Shown here: piece after piece, positions 5,612 to 53,110 of the stretch | How the letters are laid out: each line of letters opens with the position of its first letter | How positions within the stretch are numbered: position 1 is the first letter of the stretch | Assembly: GCF_905475395.1 (NCBI RefSeq) | Contig: NC_058338.1 | Span: forward strand, 8,942,935-9,006,934 | Length of the DNA stretch: 64,000 bases | Source of the DNA: Chrysoperla carnea | Lineage: Eukaryota; Arthropoda; Insecta; Neuroptera; Chrysopidae | Direction of reading: 5' to 3' | Position numbers and translations under genes: made by a program | The notes under the pieces: generated by a model | Database searches by the model: none | Seen by the model: the letters and a program-made list of their open reading frames with translations, nothing else | Told to the model about the DNA's origin: nothing

Positions 5612-5683
5612 GGCTCAATGGTCTAGGGGTATGATTCTCGCTTTGGGTGCGAGAGGTCCCGGGTTCAAATCCCGGTTGAGCCC
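5612..5683 (+). tRNA. tRNA-Pro (anticodon TGG)
   Basis: A 72-nt sequence folds as a standard cloverleaf. The acceptor stem is GGCTCAA/TTGAGCC with discriminator C. The anticodon stem is CTCGC/GCGAG closing loop TTTGGGT, so the anticodon is TGG. The T-arm is CCGGG-TTCAAAT-CCCGG with an intact B box GGTTCAAATCC. No intron. Downstream runs of T (TTTTTG at 5,687-5,692) could end Pol III transcription. Nine related sequences are in this window; this is one of two isolated plus-strand copies. Confidence 0.96.
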
Positions 5684-10320: not shown

Positions 10321-11625
10321 GATCAAATTTGCCTATGTTATCAAAAAAAATCGCATTTTTTAACTTTGTAACGTCACCAGAATCCAAAAAATTTAATTTT
10401 GCTCAATCACATTCAAATTTTATCCAATTTTGATAAATTAAGTATGTAATCCTACTTAATTTGGGTGATACTTTTCAAAATTATAACCTAGCTACAATAT
10501 GTTTCAAGAATGTGGACTCCTGTTACCGGAATTAAGCACATAAGGAATAGCTAGCGAAAAATTGACATCACAGCTGAAAAGAATGACCCAAAATTAGTGG
10601 GTTTCAAAAAAAATTCCAATAAGATCGGATCAAATTTGCCTGTGTTATCAAAAAAAAATCAAATTTTTTAACTTTATGACGTCATCAGAATCCAAAAAAT
10701 TTGATTTTGCTTTATCAAATCCAAATTTTATCCAATTTTGATAAATCAAGTATGTAATCCTACTTATTTTGGGTCATACTTTTCAAATTTGTGGTCAAAA
10801 TTAACCTAGCTACAATATGTTTCAAGAATATGGAGTCCTGGTCCCGGAATTAAGCACATAAGTGATAGCTATATAAAAATTGACATCACAGCTGAAAAGA
10901 ATGACCCAAAATTAGTGGGTTTCAAAAAAAATTTCAAAAGATCGGATTAAATTTGCCTATGTTATCAAAAAAAATGAATTTTTTAACTTTGTGACGTCAT
11001 CAGAATCCAAAAAATTTAATTTTGCTCTATCACATCCAAATTTTATCCAATTTTGATAAACCAAGTATGTAATCCTACTAAATTTGGGTCATACTCTTCA
11101 AATCTTTGATTAAAATTAATCTTTCTCTAGTAGATTTCAAGAATGTGGAGTCCTGGTATCGGAATTAAGGACATACCTGATAGCTAGCAAAAAATTGACA
11201 CCACAGCTGAAAAGAGTGACCCAAAATTAGTGGGTTTCAAAAAAAATTCCAATAAGATCGGATCAAATTAACCTATGTTATCAAAAAAATCAAATTTTTT
11301 AACTTTATGACGTCATCAGAATCCAAAAAATTTTATTTTGCTCTATCACATCCAATTTTTATCCAATTTTGACAAATCAAGTATGTAATCCTACTAAATT
11401 TGGGTCATACTTTTCAAATTTTTGATTAAAATTAACCTTTCTCTAGTAGATTTCAAGAATGTGGAGTCCTGGTATCGGAATTAAGGACATACCTGATAGT
11501 TAGCAAAAAATTGACACCACAGCTGAAAAGAGTGACCCAAAATCAATTCAAAGAAAATTCCAATTAGATTGGATCAAATTTTCCATTATTATCAAAAAAC
11601 TCGAATTTATTAACTTTATGACTTA
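10321..11625 (+). repeat. Tandem satellite-like array, unit about 310 bp, four units plus a partial one
   Basis: The landmark GATCAAATTT (or GATTAAATTT) recurs at 10,321, 10,628, 10,945, 11,261 and 11,572, giving spacings of 307, 317, 316 and 311 bp. Each unit carries the palindrome-like TGACGTCATCAGAATCC, then ATCCAATTTTGATAAA, GGGTCATACTTTTCAAAT, AAGAATGTGGAGTCCTGGT and GACCCAAAATTAGTGGGTTT. Units differ by scattered substitutions. Related pieces occur at 21.8, 27.3 and 52.4 kb. Confidence 0.9.
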
Positions 11626-12441: not shown

Positions 12442-12513
12442 GGCTCAATGGTCTAGGGGTATGATTCTCGCTTTGGGTGCGAGAGGTCCCGGGTTCATAT
12501 CCCGGTTGAGCCC
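12442..12513 (+). tRNA. tRNA-Pro (anticodon TGG)
   Basis: A 72-nt cloverleaf identical to the copy at 5.6 kb except in the T-loop, where TTCATAT replaces TTCAAAT; this also changes one B-box base. Stems, anticodon TGG and discriminator C are intact. Downstream TTTTTTC (12,518-12,524) supplies a Pol III stop. Likely functional; the T-loop change is at a position that tolerates variation better than C56 or A58. Confidence 0.92.
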
Positions 12514-21240: not shown

Positions 21241-21789
21241 CAGAATATATAAAATTTAAATTTTTCTATAAAATCATGAACTCGTTGTTTTTTTTTTTGT
21301 TTATAATTAAATTAATTTTACAGAATTATTAAAATAGATTTATGGTTCATGCTGCTGTCTCTATCAATACTAGAACGAACTTGACACAATTTTTAAATAA
21401 AATTTATAATTTTAAATTGATATATTTAGCATGGCCATTTTAAAATTAAAAATCTAGTGTGAACGCTATGCAACTTCCATGTACATAGTACTATAGGCTA
21501 CCTCAACTATATATTCACAGGTTAGGTGAGATTAAAGTGGCTTTTGTGTTTCTTGAAAATTTCTGATTTTCTGACTCTATATCTATAGCGAAACAACAAT
21601 CATAAATAACAGAGTTTAATTAACCATCATAAATAAATGTATGAATTTCGTTTTTTTGTTCCAATTATAAAATTGCAAATTTTCTGTTGAACTATTTTCC
21701 GAAAAACCCCAAAAAACGAAGATTTTCTGTTCTATACATGCTCGAAAGTTGGAATTTTCACCACTCGTCTCGATATAAAATCAACTCAG

Positions 21790-22420
21790 TAGGATAAAAT
21801 ACATGGTTTATCAAAATTTTATAAAATTTTAATGTGATAGAGCAAAATTAAATTTTTTGGATTCTGATGACGTCATAAAGTTCAAAAATTCGATTTTTTT
21901 GATAACACCGGCAAATTTGATCGGATCTTATTGGAATTTTTTTTGAAACCCACTTATTTTGGGTCATTCTTTTCAGCTGTGATGTCAGTTTTTCCCTAGC
22001 TATAATTTATGGACTTGATTCCGGGACCAGGACTCCACATTCTTGAAACCTATTAGGGCAAGGTTAATTTTGATCACAAATTTGAAAAATATGACTCAAA
22101 TTTAGTAGGATTACATACTTGGTTTATCAAAATTGGATAATATTTGGATGTGATAGAGGAAAATAAAATTTTTTTAATTCTGATGACGTCATAAAGTTCA
22201 AAAATTTGATTTTTTTGATAACAACGGCAAATTTGATCCGATCTTATTGGAATTTTTTTTGAAACCCACTAATTTTGGGTCATTTTTTTCAACTGTGATG
22301 TCAATTTTTCGCCAGTTATCACTTATATGCTTCATTCCGGAACCAGAACCCCACATTCTTGAAATCGATTAGAGCTAGGTTAATTTTGATTTTGAAAAAT
22401 ATGACTCAAATGTAGTAAGA
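21790..22420 (-). repeat. Satellite-like array of about 310 bp, inverted, two units
   Basis: The reverse complement of the 10.3-kb unit: on the plus strand GATTCTGATGACGTCATAAAG occurs twice (about 21,859 and 22,177), each followed by GATCGGATCTTATTGGAATT or GATCCGATCTTATTGGAATT. Confidence 0.85.
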
Positions 22421-23751
22421 TAAAAATAGTTAATTCTATATAATATATAGAAGTAACAATGTATAATAAACCTTGTATATTTATCTTAAGGCATCATAGA
22501 TATTTTTATTTATTTCTAATACAATAATAAATGTTTTTGTTATGGTAGTTCGCAGATTCATCCTCATATTTTGTAACAGATATTGCTAATAAATTATTAC
22601 AAAAAAAAAACTAGTTGTGTATTGTCAAAAAAAAAAATATTTCGTAACTAAATTAACATTTAAAATATTCAGAGGGCATATTTATGATCTCAATTTTGCA
22701 AATTTTATGTCGTAAGTTGTGGGTTGATTGTTTTGGGTGTAAATTGGAAAAAATATGCGTATAATTTAAAATTTTGCAAACTTTTTTTGGTAGTTCCCAC
22801 GGCTATAAAGTTTAAGTTTTTAATAAACACCTATGCAATAATGTTGGTTTTTCTATTTTTAATTCAGAACAAATATATCAACAATCAGTTATAGCGAAGG
22901 AGATGGTATAAGGTCGAACTTCACCCATCTGGTAACAAGATGCGACATATTTTTTATGAAATTTTATTGAACTCGCCTATTAAAGTTTTTCTATCAAAAA
23001 GTGTTCAAGGCTATTTTTAATTTAATTAATTTTAATCAATTTTTTCCATCAACAGTTTTTACCAGCAAGCCTATTTTCGTCATTAAATTATCTTTCTTCT
23101 GATACCAATTTGGATTGGTTAGCAGATCGGTGTAGATCTGTCCACACCATATGACCTCGTGAGCAAATCTCTCATTACGCGACTAAAGAATCTTTTAATC
23201 TTTAAAAATCTTTAATAAAAGTTATCAAACAGTTGATGCGTATTCTACATAAATTTAAGAGTAGAGTAAAAATTTTCCATAACGCTAAATTATTTGCATA
23301 TAAAAATTTATTGTTTATTTACTATAAAAATTAATATCAAATTTGCGTAACTTATTTTTATTAAATATTAATTTTACCAATCTGGAACAGAAATAAATGA
23401 TATTCGTTGATTTAACATAAATAAATATTAAATTTATATAAATATTTTGACTAGATATTTTTCAAGATTGCGTTAAAAAATTAAATATAAAATATAAATG
23501 CAATAAAATAGTAAGAAAATATATCTAAAGACTCAAAATATAGAACAACTTATATCAAGGTTGCTTGTCAAGCAAGCGCCATAAATTTTTAATATGTTCT
23601 TGGTATCGAAAGTTTTTCGATACCAAGTTTATTTTTTTCGATACTTTAGATACAAGTTTATATGACATCCCTATATATTATCACAGTTTAGGAACAGTTT
23701 TAAATGTTTAGGGGTTTTGAAATGGTTTCCGTGTAATTACTGAATATGTAA
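22421..23751. other. AT-rich intergenic
   Basis: A GGTCGAACTTCACCCATCTG segment near 22,911 matches one arm of the foldback at 26.2 kb. Otherwise no supported feature. Confidence 0.45.
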
Positions 23752-30191: not shown

Positions 30192-30263
30192 GGGCTCAAC
30201 CGGGATTTCAACCCGGGACCTCTCGCACCCAAAGCTAGAATCATACCCCTAGACCATTGAGCC
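30192..30263 (-). tRNA. tRNA-Pro (TGG), degraded copy, array 1
   Basis: First member (lowest coordinate) of a three-copy minus-strand array. It keeps the anticodon TGG and acceptor stem but has two damaging changes. The T-loop reads TTGAAAT instead of TTCAAAT, losing C56, which pairs with G19 and is also a core B-box base. The 5' side of the anticodon stem reads CTAGC instead of CTCGC, leaving an A-G mismatch. It is probably poorly transcribed and unstable; a pseudogene is likely. Confidence 0.75.
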
Positions 30264-30367
30264 GTTATTAATGTTTCACAATAGATCAAACATCCAACAT
30301 ATGGTTAGAACACTTTTACATAAAAATATGTATACTCATACTCTGATCTATATTCAAAAAAAATTAT

Positions 30368-30439
30368 GGGCTCAACCGGGATTTGAACCCGGGACCTCTC
30401 GCACCCAAAGCGAGAATCATACCCCTAGACCATTGAGCC
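30368..30439 (-). tRNA. tRNA-Pro (TGG), array 1
   Basis: A complete 72-nt cloverleaf identical to the 5.6-kb gene, with intact A and B boxes and discriminator C. It begins 176 bp from its neighbour. The minus-strand 3' flank (ATAATTTTTTTTG) gives a strong Pol III T-run terminator. Confidence 0.96.
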
Positions 30440-30542
30440 GTTGTTAATCATTAACAATAGATCAAAATTCAAAGAAATGGTTAGAACACTTTAACTATAA
30501 AAATATGTATACCCATACTCTGATCAATATTCAAAAAAATTT

Positions 30543-30614
30543 GGGCTCAACCGGGATTTGAACCCGGGACCTCTCGCACCCAAAGCGAGAATCATACCCC
30601 TAGACCATTGAGCC
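30543..30614 (-). tRNA. tRNA-Pro (TGG), array 1
   Basis: A complete 72-nt cloverleaf identical to the 5.6-kb gene, 175 bp from the next copy. The 3' flank AAATTTTTTTG terminates Pol III. The spacer (GTTAATAATTTACAACAG, GATCAAAATTCC, GGTTATAACATG) is homologous to the other spacers. Confidence 0.96.
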
Positions 30615-42969: not shown

Positions 42970-43041
42970 GGGCTCAACCGGGATTTGAACCCGGGACCTC
43001 TCGCATCCAAAGCGAGAATCATACCCCTAGACCATTGAGCC
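42970..43041 (-). tRNA. tRNA-Pro (TGG), array 2, base 37 changed
   Basis: A 72-nt cloverleaf with all stems intact. The anticodon loop reads TTTGGAT instead of TTTGGGT, so position 37, next to the anticodon, is A rather than G. G37 is normally methylated to m1G in tRNA-Pro and guards against +1 slippage, so the product may be impaired. Otherwise identical to the full copies. Confidence 0.88.
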
Positions 43042-43146
43042 GTTGTTACTCATCTACAATAGATCAAAATTCCAGCATATGGTTAGAACACTTTAACTAT
43101 AAAAATATGTGTACTCATATTCTGATCAACATTCAAAAAAATATAT

Positions 43147-43218
43147 GGGCTCAACCGGGATTTGAACCCGGGACCTCTCGCACCCAAAGCGAGAATCATA
43201 CCCCTAGACCATTGAGCC
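43147..43218 (-). tRNA. tRNA-Pro (TGG), array 2
   Basis: Complete, identical to the 5.6-kb gene; 177 bp from the previous copy. Minus-strand 3' flank ATATATTTTTTTG is a Pol III terminator. Confidence 0.96.
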
Positions 43219-43322
43219 GTTGTTACTCATCCACAATAGATCAAAATTCCAGCATATGGTTAGAACACTTTAACTATAAAAATTTGTATATACATACTAT
43301 GATCAATATTCAAAAAAAATAT

Positions 43323-43394
43323 GGGCTCAACCGGAATTTGAACCCGGGAACTCTCGCACCCAAAGCGAGAATCATACCCCTAGACCATTGAGCC
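43323..43394 (-). tRNA. tRNA-Pro (TGG), array 2, T-arm altered
   Basis: The T-stem's last loop-side pair is changed: TTCAAATTCCGG replaces TTCAAATCCCGG, so C61 becomes T, weakening the invariant 53-61 pair and altering the B box. The variable loop reads AGTTC instead of AGGTC. Anticodon and acceptor stem are intact. Probably weak or a pseudogene. Confidence 0.8.
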
Positions 43395-43496
43395 GTTGGA
43401 AATCATCCACAATAGATCAAACTGCAGCATATGGTTAGAACACTTAAACTTTAAAAATTTGTATACCCATTCACTGATCAATAATCAAAAAAATAT

Positions 43497-43568
43497 GGGC
43501 TCAACCGGGATTTGAACCCGGGACCTCTCGCACCCAAAGCGAGAATCATACCCCTAGACCATTGAGCC
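43497..43568 (-). tRNA. tRNA-Pro (TGG), array 2
   Basis: Complete, identical to the 5.6-kb gene; 174 bp from the previous copy, T-run terminator in the 3' flank (CATATTTTTTTG). Confidence 0.96.
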
Positions 43569-43671
43569 GTTGTTAAACAAATATAATAAACCAAAATTCC
43601 AACATATGGTTAGAATACTTAAACTTTAAAAATTTGTATACCCATTCACTGATCAATAATCAAAAAAATAT

Positions 43672-43743
43672 GGGCTCAACCGGGATTTGAACCCGGGACC
43701 TCTCGCACCCAAAGCGAGAATCATACCCCTAGACCATTGAGCC
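43672..43743 (-). tRNA. tRNA-Pro (TGG), array 2
   Basis: Complete, identical to the 5.6-kb gene; 175 bp from the previous copy. It is the most upstream (minus strand) member. Its 5' flank (TATATACAACAACGGCTC) differs from the spacer consensus, marking the array border. Confidence 0.96.
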
Positions 43744-48358: not shown

Positions 48359-51300
48359 TTAACCTTGCTTTTGTGCAAGTTCACGAGCTTTTGCCTTCTC
48401 TAATTTCGCAATACGTGCAGCTGATTTAGAACCTAACAAACCACCGCCCCAGTGACGACGGATTTCATCACCACGATCATTAAAGTTAGTTTTAATAGCT
48501 TCAACTATTTTGTTGAAGTTAGCTCGGTCACCAGAATCAACCTAAAAAATAAAATATCAAAAATTAATCATTTGCATGTTTAATATTTCTGTTAAAAATA
48601 GAATTTTTAAATTTTTTATTATCAGTGTTAAAAAGCTCGATTTGTTTACAATATCTTCATATTGAATCAGATTTAATTTTCATCATAAAAATTCTAAAAT
48701 TATTCAAAATTTATCACTTTCAAATTATAGTAACATTTTCGATGGCGAAAACAGAGACTTCCGTCAATATTCGAAATAAGTTGTAGAGTGCACCTGTGAC
48801 GACCACATCAGATCTTGACATATTAAAATTTAAACTTCTTGACATATTAAAATTAAATTTTTGCACTTGTTATTACATCAAATTTTGATACAGGATGTTT
48901 TAAAATAAACGATCAATAATCAAAGTAAAGTATACGCAGAAACAAACATATTTATAAAAGAAACAAAACAAATGTCCCAAAAAGTTAGCGGTCATCATAG
49001 ATGCTTCATTTTCTCAATTCTTTACCATCTTACTTCATTCATTTCTTCGTGATATCTTAAGATGGCTAAAACACGTTCGAGCAAACTTTATCAATCTTTT
49101 TTGTACAAGTATGCTAAAATTTCCGTCGGTACCACACGATACAAGTATGTTTGCACAAGAGACAGGATTATAATGATCTCTGATGATCTTACGCTGACTT
49201 TAACGGCTTTTTGCCTTGTCCACGGGAACAAGAAAGAAGGCAGCGTGATTTGTCGCATAAAAAACGGTTAAAAATAGGAAAAACTAAATTTCCATGAACG
49301 TGTACTTTACGTCAACGAAAATGTTACTATTACTTTATCTGGAAGTGTGTTAGGTTATCTTGAAATAAACAAATTTTCCAGAAATGTATTTACCTGTGTC
49401 AAAGCAATAGATGAGCATGTTTTGCGTCTCACTAAAAGACCTAATCTTGCTTTTCCTTTTACAATACAATATGGAACACCCATTTTACGGCAAAGGGCAG
49501 GTAAGAATAATACAAGCTGTAACAAAAATAAATATATATTAGTTTAACAAAATTAAAAAATTTTGTAATTGATTTTCTGACATGAAAGTTTTCTCAGGGT
49601 CAATTCTCTTCATTACAAAATAAAAATATTTTATTTTTATTTCTTCAGGTGAAGAAATTCAAAATACATCATTGAAAACATTTAAAAAATTATAAACTGA
49701 TGAACTTTAAAAGAAAATAAATTGAAATTCATATAAGTTCTTCTTTTAGCCACGATTAAACTAACACGTGGTAATAAATGATGAATTTCTTACCTCAAGT
49801 GGATCAACATCATGAGCAATTACTACAAGTTGTGCTTTTTTCTGTTCAACAAGTTTTGTAACTGTGTTGGTACCAGCTCTGATTGTGTTTGGTCGTTTTG
49901 TAGGTGTATCAACTTTCTTTGCAACTTTTGCTTCAGCACGTGCCTTTAGTCTGTTTTTCTTTTGTAATGGAGTTTCTGGACGATATTTTTCCAATAATTT
50001 AAATAATTGCACAGCTAAATAACAACAAAAAAATACTATTAAAAACTCGTTCAAATTACAATCATAAATTTAGGAAAAAAATAAGTCATCAGAAATGCAA
50101 TTTGGTGGTAGCTGAGTTATCCGCAAACACTTTAGGATAGCAAATACTAAAAATCATCATACAAGTTTTTTGGAACGAACATAAATTGAATATTTGAACC
50201 ATGGATATAGGAATATTTTAAAAGGGGTGGAGTATAACGGAGTGGGGTGTGTCTCACTCAGGGGGAAGAGGCAGGGTATCATTGTGTCTACTTTCTATTG
50301 GCTGTTTAACTAGACGCATGCTGAAAGTAAGTTCAAAGCCTTCTTTAAGTGTTTTTGATTCGTTTGTAAGCATGGAAACATGTTTGACATATGGTTGACG
50401 TTTGTGGACAACATAAATAAATAATCTTATATTCAAAAGAAAAGTAAATTTTGTAAAGAAAAATAAATACGTGAAGTATTTATGCTTGTTTTAAAACAAT
50501 TTTTCCAACGATATAAGTAACCTAAACGCAACAGTTTTCAATCCTTAGTGTTACAACTATTGTAAGTTAAGTAATGAAATTCAAAAGAAGGTTTAAGAAT
50601 ATCTCAAAAATACGTCGATTAATTTTCAATACTAAATTTCAACGTATTATAGAATTTTTAAAATATGAAATGTAAAAAATTTATTTGGGGAAATTATTAC
50701 TTATTTATGGATTGAATTATGTACCCGTGTACCCATATATTCTTTAGGTAATTAGTCGGTCATAGGAATATTAAAGATATATTCCTTCATCCAAGGGTAA
50801 TTAATTAAAAATATTATATTTGTAATTAATTTCCAAATTGTACTTTAAATAGATTTTTTGCTCAGACCAATCTACAACACACGCAGAATTCGTTACCCAT
50901 TTAAATTTTCCCACAATTGAAAGTGCGAATAGCCGCAGCCAATCAAAAACAGGCATATTTCTTGAGACAATCTTAAACCATGGATATAGAAATATTAAAA
51001 TCTAAAACACACGAAATATTATCGTTCTATTTGAATTTCCCGCAAATGAGAGCCGCAGCCAATCAAAAGTAGACACATTACTTCCCCCCTGAGTGATACA
51101 CCCCCCTCGTCACTACTTTAGACCTATAATTACTAGATCCGTGATTTGAACAAAAAACCTTACCTGTTTGTTTGTCAAGTGTTTGGGTGAACTGATTGAT
51201 TGGTGGAGGAACTTTCAATCGTCGTTGTAAAACAGCTTTCTGTCTTTGAATACGAATGTATTTTGGCCATCTTACAAATCTTGATAAATCTCTAACAGGT

Positions 51301-52045
51301 TGAATATCTTGACCTAAACACCAGAAACATGTCACATTAATTTCAAAACCGTAAAATAAAAGCACAACAAATTTTAGAAATCGATTTTCATCAGTGTTAA
51401 AAAGCTCGATTTAAAATAATCGTCATTCTTATTTCAGAATTTAAAAGATCATCATTGAAAACTTCGAAAACTTAAAATGAATTAAATCAAAAACTTACCA
51501 ATTCCAAAATTTCTTGGTCGTTTCTCAAACAATGGATTTACAACTTTCTTAACTTCTACTTTTTTTACAGCTAAGGGAGCAGCTGCTACTTTTTTTCCTC
51601 CCTTCTTCTTGGGCTGTAATTAAAAACCAATATTAAGCAAAAATATTCATACAATTTATAATACATTTTTTGGAATAAAATAAAACATCAGTAAAGCAAT
51701 TTTGGTGGTAGCATTTATATCTGCAAAACCTTTAAGATAGCAAATACGGTCATCATTAACCTAAAAACTTAACCTCAATAAAAAACACATTTTTAAGATT
51801 TAACTATTCACAACAAACTTAACTAATTATCCATAACTAATAAACTTTTCGAATAAAATTCGAATTTATTTTATTAAAATCCAATTCAAGAATAACAAGT
51901 TATTTACATGATTTCCGTATTAATGTGAGCACCATGTAGTTGACGGATAAAAACAAATAATGATTTTGAGTCGAAAGTATATAAAATTAGAAAGAAATAT
52001 GTATTAAATTACATAAATAAATGAACGAACCTTCTTTTGAACCAT
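48359..52045 (-). CDS. RpL7A: Ribosomal protein L7A (eL8), complete, six coding exons
   Basis: Structural protein of the 60S subunit. Coding exons on the minus strand are 52,045-52,031, 51,613-51,499, 51,313-51,164, 50,014-49,794, 49,516-49,394 and 48,541-48,359. Joined they give 807 nt, or 268 residues, the usual eL8 length, with phases agreeing at every junction. Landmarks are MVQKK, a lysine-rich KKKGGKK segment, [38 protein letters not shown], the L7Ae-fold region [36 protein letters not shown] and the end [19 protein letters not shown]. Introns 2-5 have strong GTAAG-type or GTATA/GTAAA donors; intron 1 has an unusual donor, AAG-GTTCGT. Every intron holds a box C/D snoRNA-like sequence. 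It is transcribed toward lower coordinates, with a satellite array about 220 bp behind its likely start. Confidence 0.97.
48617..48691 (-). ncRNA. Box C/D snoRNA, U36-like (18S guide), intron 5 of RpL7A
   Basis: On the minus strand, box C ATGATGA, a D' box CTGA, a C'-like ATGAAGA and box D CTGA occur in order over 75 nt. The 13 nt CGAGCTTTTTAAC next to the D box are the exact complement of the conserved 18S rRNA stretch GTTAAAAAGCTCG. The box-D-plus-five rule targets the first A after GTT, which I equate with human 18S Am668, guided by U36. The terminal stem is weak. It resembles the intron 2 copy. Confidence 0.82.
49588..49679 (-). ncRNA. Box C/D snoRNA, U36-like (28S guide), intron 4 of RpL7A
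   Basis: A 92-nt sequence closed by a perfect 6-bp stem GTTTTC/GAAAAC. Box C is ATGATGT, D' is CTGA, C'-like is ATGAAGA and D is CTGA. The 14 nt upstream of D', TTGAATTTCTTCAC, complement GTGAAGAAATTCAA, a stretch I recall as strictly conserved in 25S/28S rRNA. The plus-five rule points to the second A of GTGAA, which I equate with human 28S Am3703, also a U36-family target. The guide at box D has no target I know. Confidence 0.82.
50087..50163 (-). ncRNA. Box C/D snoRNA, U24-like, second copy, intron 3 of RpL7A
   Basis: On the minus strand: box C ATGATGA, TAGTATTTGCTATCC, then GCTACCACCAAATTGC, and box D CTGA. TATTTGCTA complements 28S TAGCAAATA, and CTACCACCAA complements TTGGTGGTAG just upstream of it in 28S, the two elements that define U24. 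The D' box after GCTAT is degenerate (CCTA), and the ACCACCAA element sits about ten nt from box D rather than adjacent. The terminal stem is weak. Confidence 0.78.
50243..51112. mobile_element. Inverted-repeat element inside RpL7A intron 3
   Basis: GGGTGTGTCTCACTCAGGGG and TGTGTCTACTTTCTATTGGC at the left face CCCCTGAGTGATACACCC and AATCAAAAGTAGACACATTA at the right. Inside, AGCCGCAGCCAATCAAAA and ACCATGGATATAG-AATATT each occur twice. No coding frame. It accounts for most of the unusual length of this intron and leaves the snoRNA and splice sites untouched. Confidence 0.6.
51385..51461 (-). ncRNA. Box C/D snoRNA, U36-like (18S guide), intron 2 of RpL7A
   Basis: A textbook 77-nt C/D RNA: terminal stem TTTTCA/TGAAAA, box C ATGATGA, D' CTGA, C'-like ATGACGA and D CTGA. 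The D guide CGAGCTTTTTAAC complements 18S GTTAAAAAGCTCG over 13 nt; plus-five gives the first A after GTT (human Am668 equivalent). The same 22-nt D-box end is repeated in the intron 5 copy. The D' guide (CTTTTAAATT) matches no rRNA site I know. Confidence 0.9.
51683..51762 (-). ncRNA. Box C/D snoRNA, U24-like, intron 1 of RpL7A
   Basis: On the minus strand: box C ATGATGA, GTATTTGCTATCTTAAAG, GCTACCACCAAAATTGC and box D CTGA. The TATTTGCTA guide, followed by a degenerate D' (CTTA), complements 28S TAGCAAATA, with the fifth base placing the mark on its C, as vertebrate U24 does. The second element (CTACCACCAA) complements the neighbouring TTGGTGGTAG. Vertebrate U24 is likewise intronic in RPL7A. 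Confidence 0.84.
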
Positions 52046-52374: not shown

Positions 52375-53110
52375 ATCCTACAAAATTTGGGTCATACTTT
52401 TCACATTTGTGATCAAAATTAACCTAGCTCTAATGGGTTTCAAGAATGTGGAGTCCTATTACCGGAATTATGCACATAAGTGGTAGCTAGCGAAAAATTG
52501 ACATCACAGCTGAAAAGAATGACCCAAAATTAGTGGGTTTCAAAAAAAATTCCAATAAGATCCGATCAAATTTGCCTGTGTTATCAAAAAAGTCGATTTT
52601 TTTTACTTTATAACGTCATCAGAATCCAAAAAATTTAATTTTGCTCTATCACATCCAAATTTTATCCAATTGTGCTAAATCAAGTATGTAATCCTACTAA
52701 ATTTGGGTCATATTTTTCAAATTTATTATCATAATTAACCCAGCTCTTATAGGTTTCCAGAATGTGGAATCCTGGTTCCGGAATTCAGCACATAAGTGAT
52801 AGCTAGCAAAAAACTAGCATTACAGCTGAGAAAAATGACCCAAAATTAGTGGGTTTGAAAAAAAATTCCTATAAGATCGGATCAAATTTGCCCGTGTTAT
52901 CAAAAAAGTCGAATTATTTTACTTTATGACGTCATCAGAATCCAAAAAATTTAATGTTTCACTATCGCATCCAAATTTTATCCAATTTTGATAAACCAAG
53001 TATATAATCCTACTAAATTTGGGTCATACTTTTCAAATTTGTGATGAAAATTAACCTAGCTCTAATATGTTTCAAGAATGTGGAGTCTTGGTCCCGGAAT
53101 GCAGCACGAA
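52375..53110 (+). repeat. Satellite-like array of about 310 bp, more than two units, upstream of RpL7A
   Basis: GACGTCATCAGAATCCAAAA or the variant AACGTCATCAGAATCCAAAA recurs at about 52,613 and 52,928, with GGGTCATACTTTTCA near 52,389 and 53,023. Same orientation as the 10.3-kb array. Confidence 0.85.

Follow-up and report, generated by a model that had tools for sequence, protein, structure and literature searches.

Five predicted box C/D small nucleolar RNAs in the introns of RpL7A of Chrysoperla carnea

It is debated whether small nucleolar RNAs (snoRNAs) remain tied to one host through deep evolutionary time or move about among strongly expressed genes (PMC3511168), and the RpL7A gene of Chrysoperla carnea raises that question within a single locus. 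The stretch analysed, called the window below, comprised 64,000 nucleotides (nt) of the forward strand of contig NC_058338.1 (NCBI RefSeq assembly GCF_905475395.1, positions 8,942,935 to 9,006,934) and was numbered from its first letter. RpL7A lies on the minus strand of the window, and each of its five introns holds one predicted box C/D unit of the U24 or U36 kind. RpL7A is therefore put forward, with high confidence, as the host of five predicted intron-encoded box C/D snoRNAs. The set is ordinary in kind and informative in detail, through its copies and its lost guides.

Five box C/D units in the introns of RpL7A

The gene and the units were located as follows; the ends of all units are approximate.

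48359..52045, minus strand: RpL7A (eL8) gene, six coding exons, stop included.
52045-52031, 51613-51499, 51313-51164, 50014-49794, 49516-49394 and 48541-48359, minus strand: the six RpL7A exons in order, the last with the stop.
51684..51761, minus strand: U24-like unit of intron 1, with C box 51756-51750, D' guide 51747-51737, D' box CTTA 51736-51733 and D box 51691-51688.
51711-51702, minus strand: second segment of the intron 1 unit complementary to ribosomal RNA (rRNA), CTACCACCAA.
51385..51461, minus strand: U36 unit of intron 2, with C box 51455-51449, D' box 51437-51434, D guide 51408-51396 and D box 51394-51391.
50085..50166, minus strand: U24-like unit of intron 3, with C box 50160-50154, D' guide 50148-50137, D' box CCTA 50136-50133 and D box 50092-50089.
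50111-50102, minus strand: the same segment, CTACCACCAA, in the intron 3 unit.
49588..49678, minus strand: U36-like unit of intron 4, with C box ATGATGT 49672-49666, D' guide 49663-49649, D' box 49648-49645 and D box 49597-49594.
48616..48692, minus strand: U36 unit of intron 5, with C box 48686-48680, D guide 48639-48627 and D box 48625-48622.

Frames were scanned on both strands of the window as [AG]TGATG[AT] followed by CTGA 45-90 nt on. Of the fifteen found, five lie in RpL7A introns, one in each, and 10 in the remaining 125120 strand-bases; at the rate of those 10, the introns would be expected to hold 0.23 (Poisson probability of at least five, 4.4e-6). The D box is CTGA in 5/5 units; the C box is ATGATGA in introns 1, 2, 3 and 5.

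The host gene encodes a ribosomal protein L7a of 268 amino acids, with the reading frame kept across the six exons. Introns 1 to 5 measure 417, 185, 1149, 277 and 852 nt (2880 nt in total), begin with GT and end with AG in 5/5 cases, and interrupt the frame in phases 0, 1, 1, 0 and 0. The protein was matched by eL8/L7a chains of solved ribosomes (best E 1.6e-133), the best-matching of which, 4v6w, is from Drosophila. The 559 Mb assembly gave 9 matches to it, and of these only the window locus has the complete exon set. A broken RpL7A-like copy elsewhere (contig C1:91101684-91102095), with stops inside and pieces 51% and 60% identical, is probably an old pseudogene.

Guides and their ribosomal RNA sites

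Targets were sought in one ribosomal DNA (rDNA) unit of the same assembly, on contig C6 (18S, 2189 nt; 5.8S; 28S, joined, 3427 nt), whose rRNA sequences supply the 18S and 28S numbering used here, and the target nucleotide was taken as that opposite the fifth nucleotide upstream of the D or D' box. One guide per unit lies at its family's rRNA site in this register, in all five. The D guide of introns 2 and 5 forms 13 base pairs (bp) with 18S, with A645 as target (GTTAAAAAGCTCG); the D' guide of intron 4 forms 14 Watson-Crick pairs and one G-U pair with 28S, with A3171 as target; and the D' guides of introns 1 and 3 form 10+1 and 11+1 pairs, respectively, with 28S, with C1915 as target (GTAGCAAATAC). 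The best rRNA score anywhere was reached by 1 of 300 shuffles for intron 2, 1 for intron 5, 0 for intron 4, 21 for intron 1 and 25 for intron 3. The human sites of U36A, U36C and U24 are named 18S A668, 28S A3703 and 28S C2352 (PMC2653536, PMC3412847). Judged from guide sequences shared with the Rfam consensus and from rRNA context, A645, A3171 and C1915 would correspond to these in that order. The 28S here reads AGCAAATAC and both U24-like guides start GTATTTGCT, differing from the A that opens the guide in the Rfam consensus, so that the guides fit their own target.

The second guides (D' of introns 2 and 5; D of introns 1, 3 and 4) gave no credible site in 18S, 5.8S or 28S, their best scores of 8.3 to 10.6 being matched by 73 to 219 of 300 shuffles. 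Words joining a guide to its box were sought in the 559 Mb assembly, and none had an exact place outside RpL7A. At up to one mismatch, the A645 guide with its D box (TCGAGCTTTTTAACNCTGA) occurred at two places, introns 2 and 5 (reversed control, 1). The A3171 guide with its D' box (TTGAATTTCTTCACNTGA) had one exact place, intron 4, and 25 places at up to one mismatch (control, 16). The U24-like D' word (GTATTTGCTATCYTAAAG) had two exact places, introns 1 and 3, and 79 at up to two mismatches (control, 104); no C/D unit was recognised at the three of the other 77 inexact places that were inspected by eye (L041, L042 and L046).

The 18S word was present at 162 places in the assembly and the 28S word at 34. 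On the small contigs C96 and C115, units about 13.76 kb apart contain 18S, and neither one whole C96 unit nor 9.9 kb of C115 contains the 28S words targeted by U24 and U36. Compared with the complete C6 unit, similarity ends near the 28S start on C96 and some 120 nt short of the U24 site on C115, which may reflect an insertion, truncated arrays or an assembly effect.

The Rfam consensus of U36/SNORD36 (RF00049), whose yeast counterpart is snR47, carries both an 18S guide, CGAGCUUUUUAAC, and a 28S guide, GAAUUUCUUCAC; each copy here retains one of the two, the former being kept in introns 2 and 5 and the latter in intron 4. The RpL7A set thus presents a dual-guide U36 divided into single-guide copies. 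In chicken one U36 RNA is predicted for both sites, while in human U36A and U36C divide them; yeast snR47 is listed for both sites, and for plants U36Ia and U36IIa are listed (PMC2653536). The 18S and 28S guides accordingly stand on separate RNAs here and in human and on a single RNA in chicken, and the split seen here may be common with that in human or independent of it.

Two features of U24/SNORD24 (RF00069) recur in the U24-like units here: the element ACCACCAA and the D' guide, UAUUUGCUA, which is directed at the human C2352 site. In the Rfam consensus ACCACCAAGAUC stands one nucleotide before CUGA, whereas here 10 nt (intron 1) and 9 nt (intron 3) lie between the CCAA of CTACCACCAA and the D box, so that the D guide is broken; a 4-nt insertion appears in the Rfam alignment of intron 3 to SNORD24. 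In neither U24-like copy does position 5 of the D guide face C1901 (human C2338). CTACCACCAA is complementary to 28S 1902-1911 and to nowhere else in the three rRNAs, and this target abuts the D' duplex on 28S 1911-1921. The register change is shared by introns 1 and 3 and is therefore probably older than their duplication.

To find a replacement guide for C1901, the assembly was searched for CACCAAGATCNCTGA, allowing one mismatch. All 40 places found (reversed control, 37) were examined for an exact [AG]TGATG[AT] 20-85 nt upstream, and none had such a C box; the search is blind to guides that use G-U pairs, form a shorter duplex or follow a different C box. A table in PMC3511168 assigns C2338-type methylation to U24 in Arabidopsis, human and yeast, so the guide apparently lost is common to these three. 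Loss of a single guide has precedent: across four sponges, just one of the two U24 guide sites is kept by every species (PMC3412847). We tentatively suggest, as a possibility below even chances, that U24 here gave up its C2338-type guide, that CTACCACCAA now serves as a second anchor for C1915, and that C1901 is unmethylated or otherwise guided. Such an anchor would hold the snoRNA-protein particle (snoRNP) on the rRNA for methylation of C1915.

These results bear on an earlier sequence-only reading of the same DNA, which had announced an ATGATGA/CTGA unit in every RpL7A intron, in the order U24, U36, U24, U36, U36 along introns 1-5. The frames in 5/5 introns, with guides at the families' rRNA sites, bear out the units, and the order was right; CTGA holds in all five and ATGATGA in four, intron 4 having ATGATGT. 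Its U24 label for introns 1 and 3 fits the D' guide, which is kept, and misses the loss of one of U24's two in-register guides, and its U36 label for intron 4 fits the D' half, in a unit that has no 18S guide. The division of the two U36 guides and the nearly even distance to the 3' splice site are absent from that reading.

Copies, spacing and neighbouring repeats

Units were scored against the Rfam models, for which the gathering cut-offs are 30 bits (SNORD36, RF00049) and 41 bits (SNORD24, RF00069). Introns 2 and 5 passed for SNORD36 (48.1 and 33.9 bits), and intron 4 fell below (26.8 bits), with its D half unmatched in the alignment. SNORD24 scores of 29.4 bits (intron 1) and 19.7 bits (intron 3) were both below the cut-off, and intron 3 scored higher for snosnR61 (25.0 bits) than for SNORD24 and reached neither cut-off. 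On account of these scores intron 4 is termed U36-like and introns 1 and 3 are termed U24-like and are not filed as SNORD24.

Paralogy was assessed by local alignment of the units against 1000 shuffles. Intron 1 resembled intron 3 (score 79, z 15.8, 0/1000 shuffles), and intron 2 resembled both intron 5 (score 71, z 10.2, 0/1000) and intron 4 (score 52, z 5.2, 0/1000); introns 4 and 5 showed no resemblance (score 33, z 1.2, 153/1000), and the six cross-family pairs gave z 0.1 to 1.8. The U36 ancestry of intron 4 is consequently put forward less firmly, from its D' guide, a flank shared with intron 2 and the sub-threshold Rfam match. The sequence-only reading had proposed that the set grew by duplication of both RNAs, which agrees with the paralogy of introns 1 and 3 and of introns 2 and 5 and applies more weakly to intron 4, which is like intron 2 and not intron 5. 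The covariance search with the U24 and U36 models that it had suggested came out in favour of SNORD36 for introns 2 and 5, with intron 4 below the cut-off and no unit passing for SNORD24.

The distance from the end of the D box to the 3' splice site is 74, 77, 74, 77 and 80 nt in introns 1-5, across intron lengths of 185-1149 nt. When units were placed at random in introns of equal lengths, a spread of at most 6 nt arose in 0/2,000,000 trials and all five units fell within 60-90 nt in 14/2,000,000. Intronic C/D units are reported to keep a conserved position relative to the 3' splice site and branch point, upstream of both (PMC8162545, PMC10234308), and the best distance is put at some 50 nt ahead of the branch point (PMC8162545). 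In a later human survey, close-lying C/D snoRNAs were called typical, with a canonical rRNA target, and most expressed C/D snoRNAs lay at least 100 nt from the branch point (PMC10234308). Since most human units are farther out and the distances here were measured to the splice site, the spacing is supportive and not diagnostic.

Intron 3 also contains an inserted element.

50244..51106, no strand assigned: approximate extent of a dispersed repeat with inverted ends, which lies on the upstream side of the snoRNA in intron 3.

Its inverted arms lie at 50244-50265 / 51085-51106 and 50274-50304 / 51056-51086. One repeat end (157 bp) had 40 scored matches in the assembly (itself and 39 at 93-97% identity) of 143 candidates, which suggests that the repeat spread recently. 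Intron 3 has kept its 74 nt spacing despite the insertion.

Stems beside the boxes measure 4, 7, 3, 6 and 2 bp in introns 1-5. Single-sequence folding was uninformative for four units (z -0.09, -0.05, 1.70 and 0.57); the intron 4 unit folds better than its shuffles (z -2.27), with an AT-rich inner hairpin.

Elsewhere in the window, ten tRNA-Pro(TGG) genes were found at 5612-5683, 12442-12513, 30192-30614 and 42970-43743; two tandem arrays, of 3 and 5 genes and repeating about every 175 bp, account for eight of the ten. A 316-bp unit is repeated in tandem at 10321-11622, 21788-22425 and 52375-53107, flanking RpL7A on both sides, and these repeats apparently belong to one satellite-like family.

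Host linkage and comparison with known systems

In vertebrates, RPL7A is described in a review as host of four snoRNAs (PMC7277114) and elsewhere as the host of SNORD36C (PMC8629011); human SNORD24 lies in its intron 2 (PMC3412847), and in the chicken gene intron 1 carries U24 while introns 3 and 4 carry U36-like GGgCD18 isoforms (PMC2653536). The simplest reading, and in our judgement a reasonably likely one, is that the linkage of U24 and U36 to RPL7A is of common ancestry and older than the vertebrate-insect split, as the sequence-only reading had inferred; it draws on one arthropod genome and the literature. An ancestral RPL7A would then have hosted U24 and U36, and duplication and division of guide jobs would have followed.

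Alternatively, U24 and U36 might have reached RpL7A independently in arthropods and vertebrates, as mobile snoRNAs favouring strongly and broadly expressed genes, an account that we regard as unlikely but deserving serious weight. Mobility is indicated by sponge SNORD24, which lies in RPL5 (PMC3412847) and speaks against an old linkage, and a survey of 44 genomes found intronic snoRNA locations not to be stable across eukaryotes and proposed constrained drift (PMC3511168). However, two unrelated families share one host here, in chicken and in human, and their joint independent arrival would be the larger coincidence (an argument, not a computed value).

If all five units are functional, the cluster could work as follows, a course of expression, snoRNP assembly and methylation proposed from sequence. 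During splicing of RpL7A pre-mRNA, each unit, some 75-80 nt ahead of the 3' splice site, would be bound by the C/D core proteins. After debranching, the intron would be trimmed to the snoRNA, and the resulting snoRNPs would direct 2'-O-methylation of 18S A645 (introns 2 and 5), 28S A3171 (intron 4) and 28S C1915 (introns 1 and 3).

Several observations weigh against five genuine, working snoRNAs. Three of the five units (introns 1, 3 and 4) miss the Rfam gathering scores, the D' scores of introns 1 and 3 taken alone are not significant (21 and 25 of 300 shuffles), their D' boxes are degenerate, and a 1-nt register shift of the intron 3 D' guide (to G1914) fits equally. The distances in the human survey point the same way, as do the short adjoining stems of introns 3 and 5 (3 and 2 bp) and an unrelated C/D frame at 29760-29687 (minus strand), whose TATA-rich guide to 28S 2140 scores 13.0. 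That a chance-like frame scores so well means that guide score alone is insufficient; the guides of introns 1 and 3 were counted because the site is the family's own and both copies keep it.

Some copies, chiefly those in introns 3 and 5, could be decaying, unprocessed duplicates, leaving a working set of three snoRNAs. Besides the short stems, the low SNORD24 score of intron 3 (19.7 bits) and the lack of a usable second guide in any of the five units favour this. Yet both introns keep boxes, single guide and 3' spacing while the remainder has diverged, in intron 3 even after the dispersed repeat entered; intron 5 is above the SNORD36 cut-off; and introns 3 and 5 have longer stems (6 and 8 bp) farther out, at an offset of 5-7 nt. 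Decay is, on this evidence, rather improbable. Chance box and guide matches in AT-rich introns, of which the 10 frames elsewhere in the window and the high score at 29760-29687 give a foretaste, are an extremely improbable source of the set, given one frame per intron, guides at family sites, paralogy, spacing and the rarity of the guide words.

No description of U24 or U36 in insect RpL7A was met in the literature excerpts, whose scope does not extend to the Huang 2005 Drosophila snoRNA survey, the U24 paper or Hoeppner 2009, and we do not claim that the insect cluster is unpublished.

One of the host introns can itself be compared with a known one. Intron 4 is in phase 0 after codon 167, which falls at residue 160 or 161 of the yeast chain (mapped from the aligned ranges 11-257 to 4-251, not from a printed alignment). 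A phase 0 intron at yeast L7a residue 161 is recorded for human, Drosophila, Giardia and others (Russell et al. 2005, PMC1201135). Given the like phase and position, intron 4 is very probably this ancient Rpl7a intron, in the account of which the word "snoRNA" has 0 occurrences (PMC1201135). Rpl7a of Anopheles gambiae is without any introns (PMC1201135); an intron-hosted snoRNA arrangement must therefore have been lost or moved there, which makes that species a natural test of the arrangement.

The closest known system is the vertebrate RPL7A cluster, which is like the one described here in host gene, in its two families (SNORD24/U24 and SNORD36/U36) and in the kind of guide sites. It differs in that here five units occupy five introns, with two U24-like copies and an alternating start to the series. 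A two-family cluster present in both vertebrate RPL7A and insect RpL7A is a good test case for the stability of snoRNA hosts.

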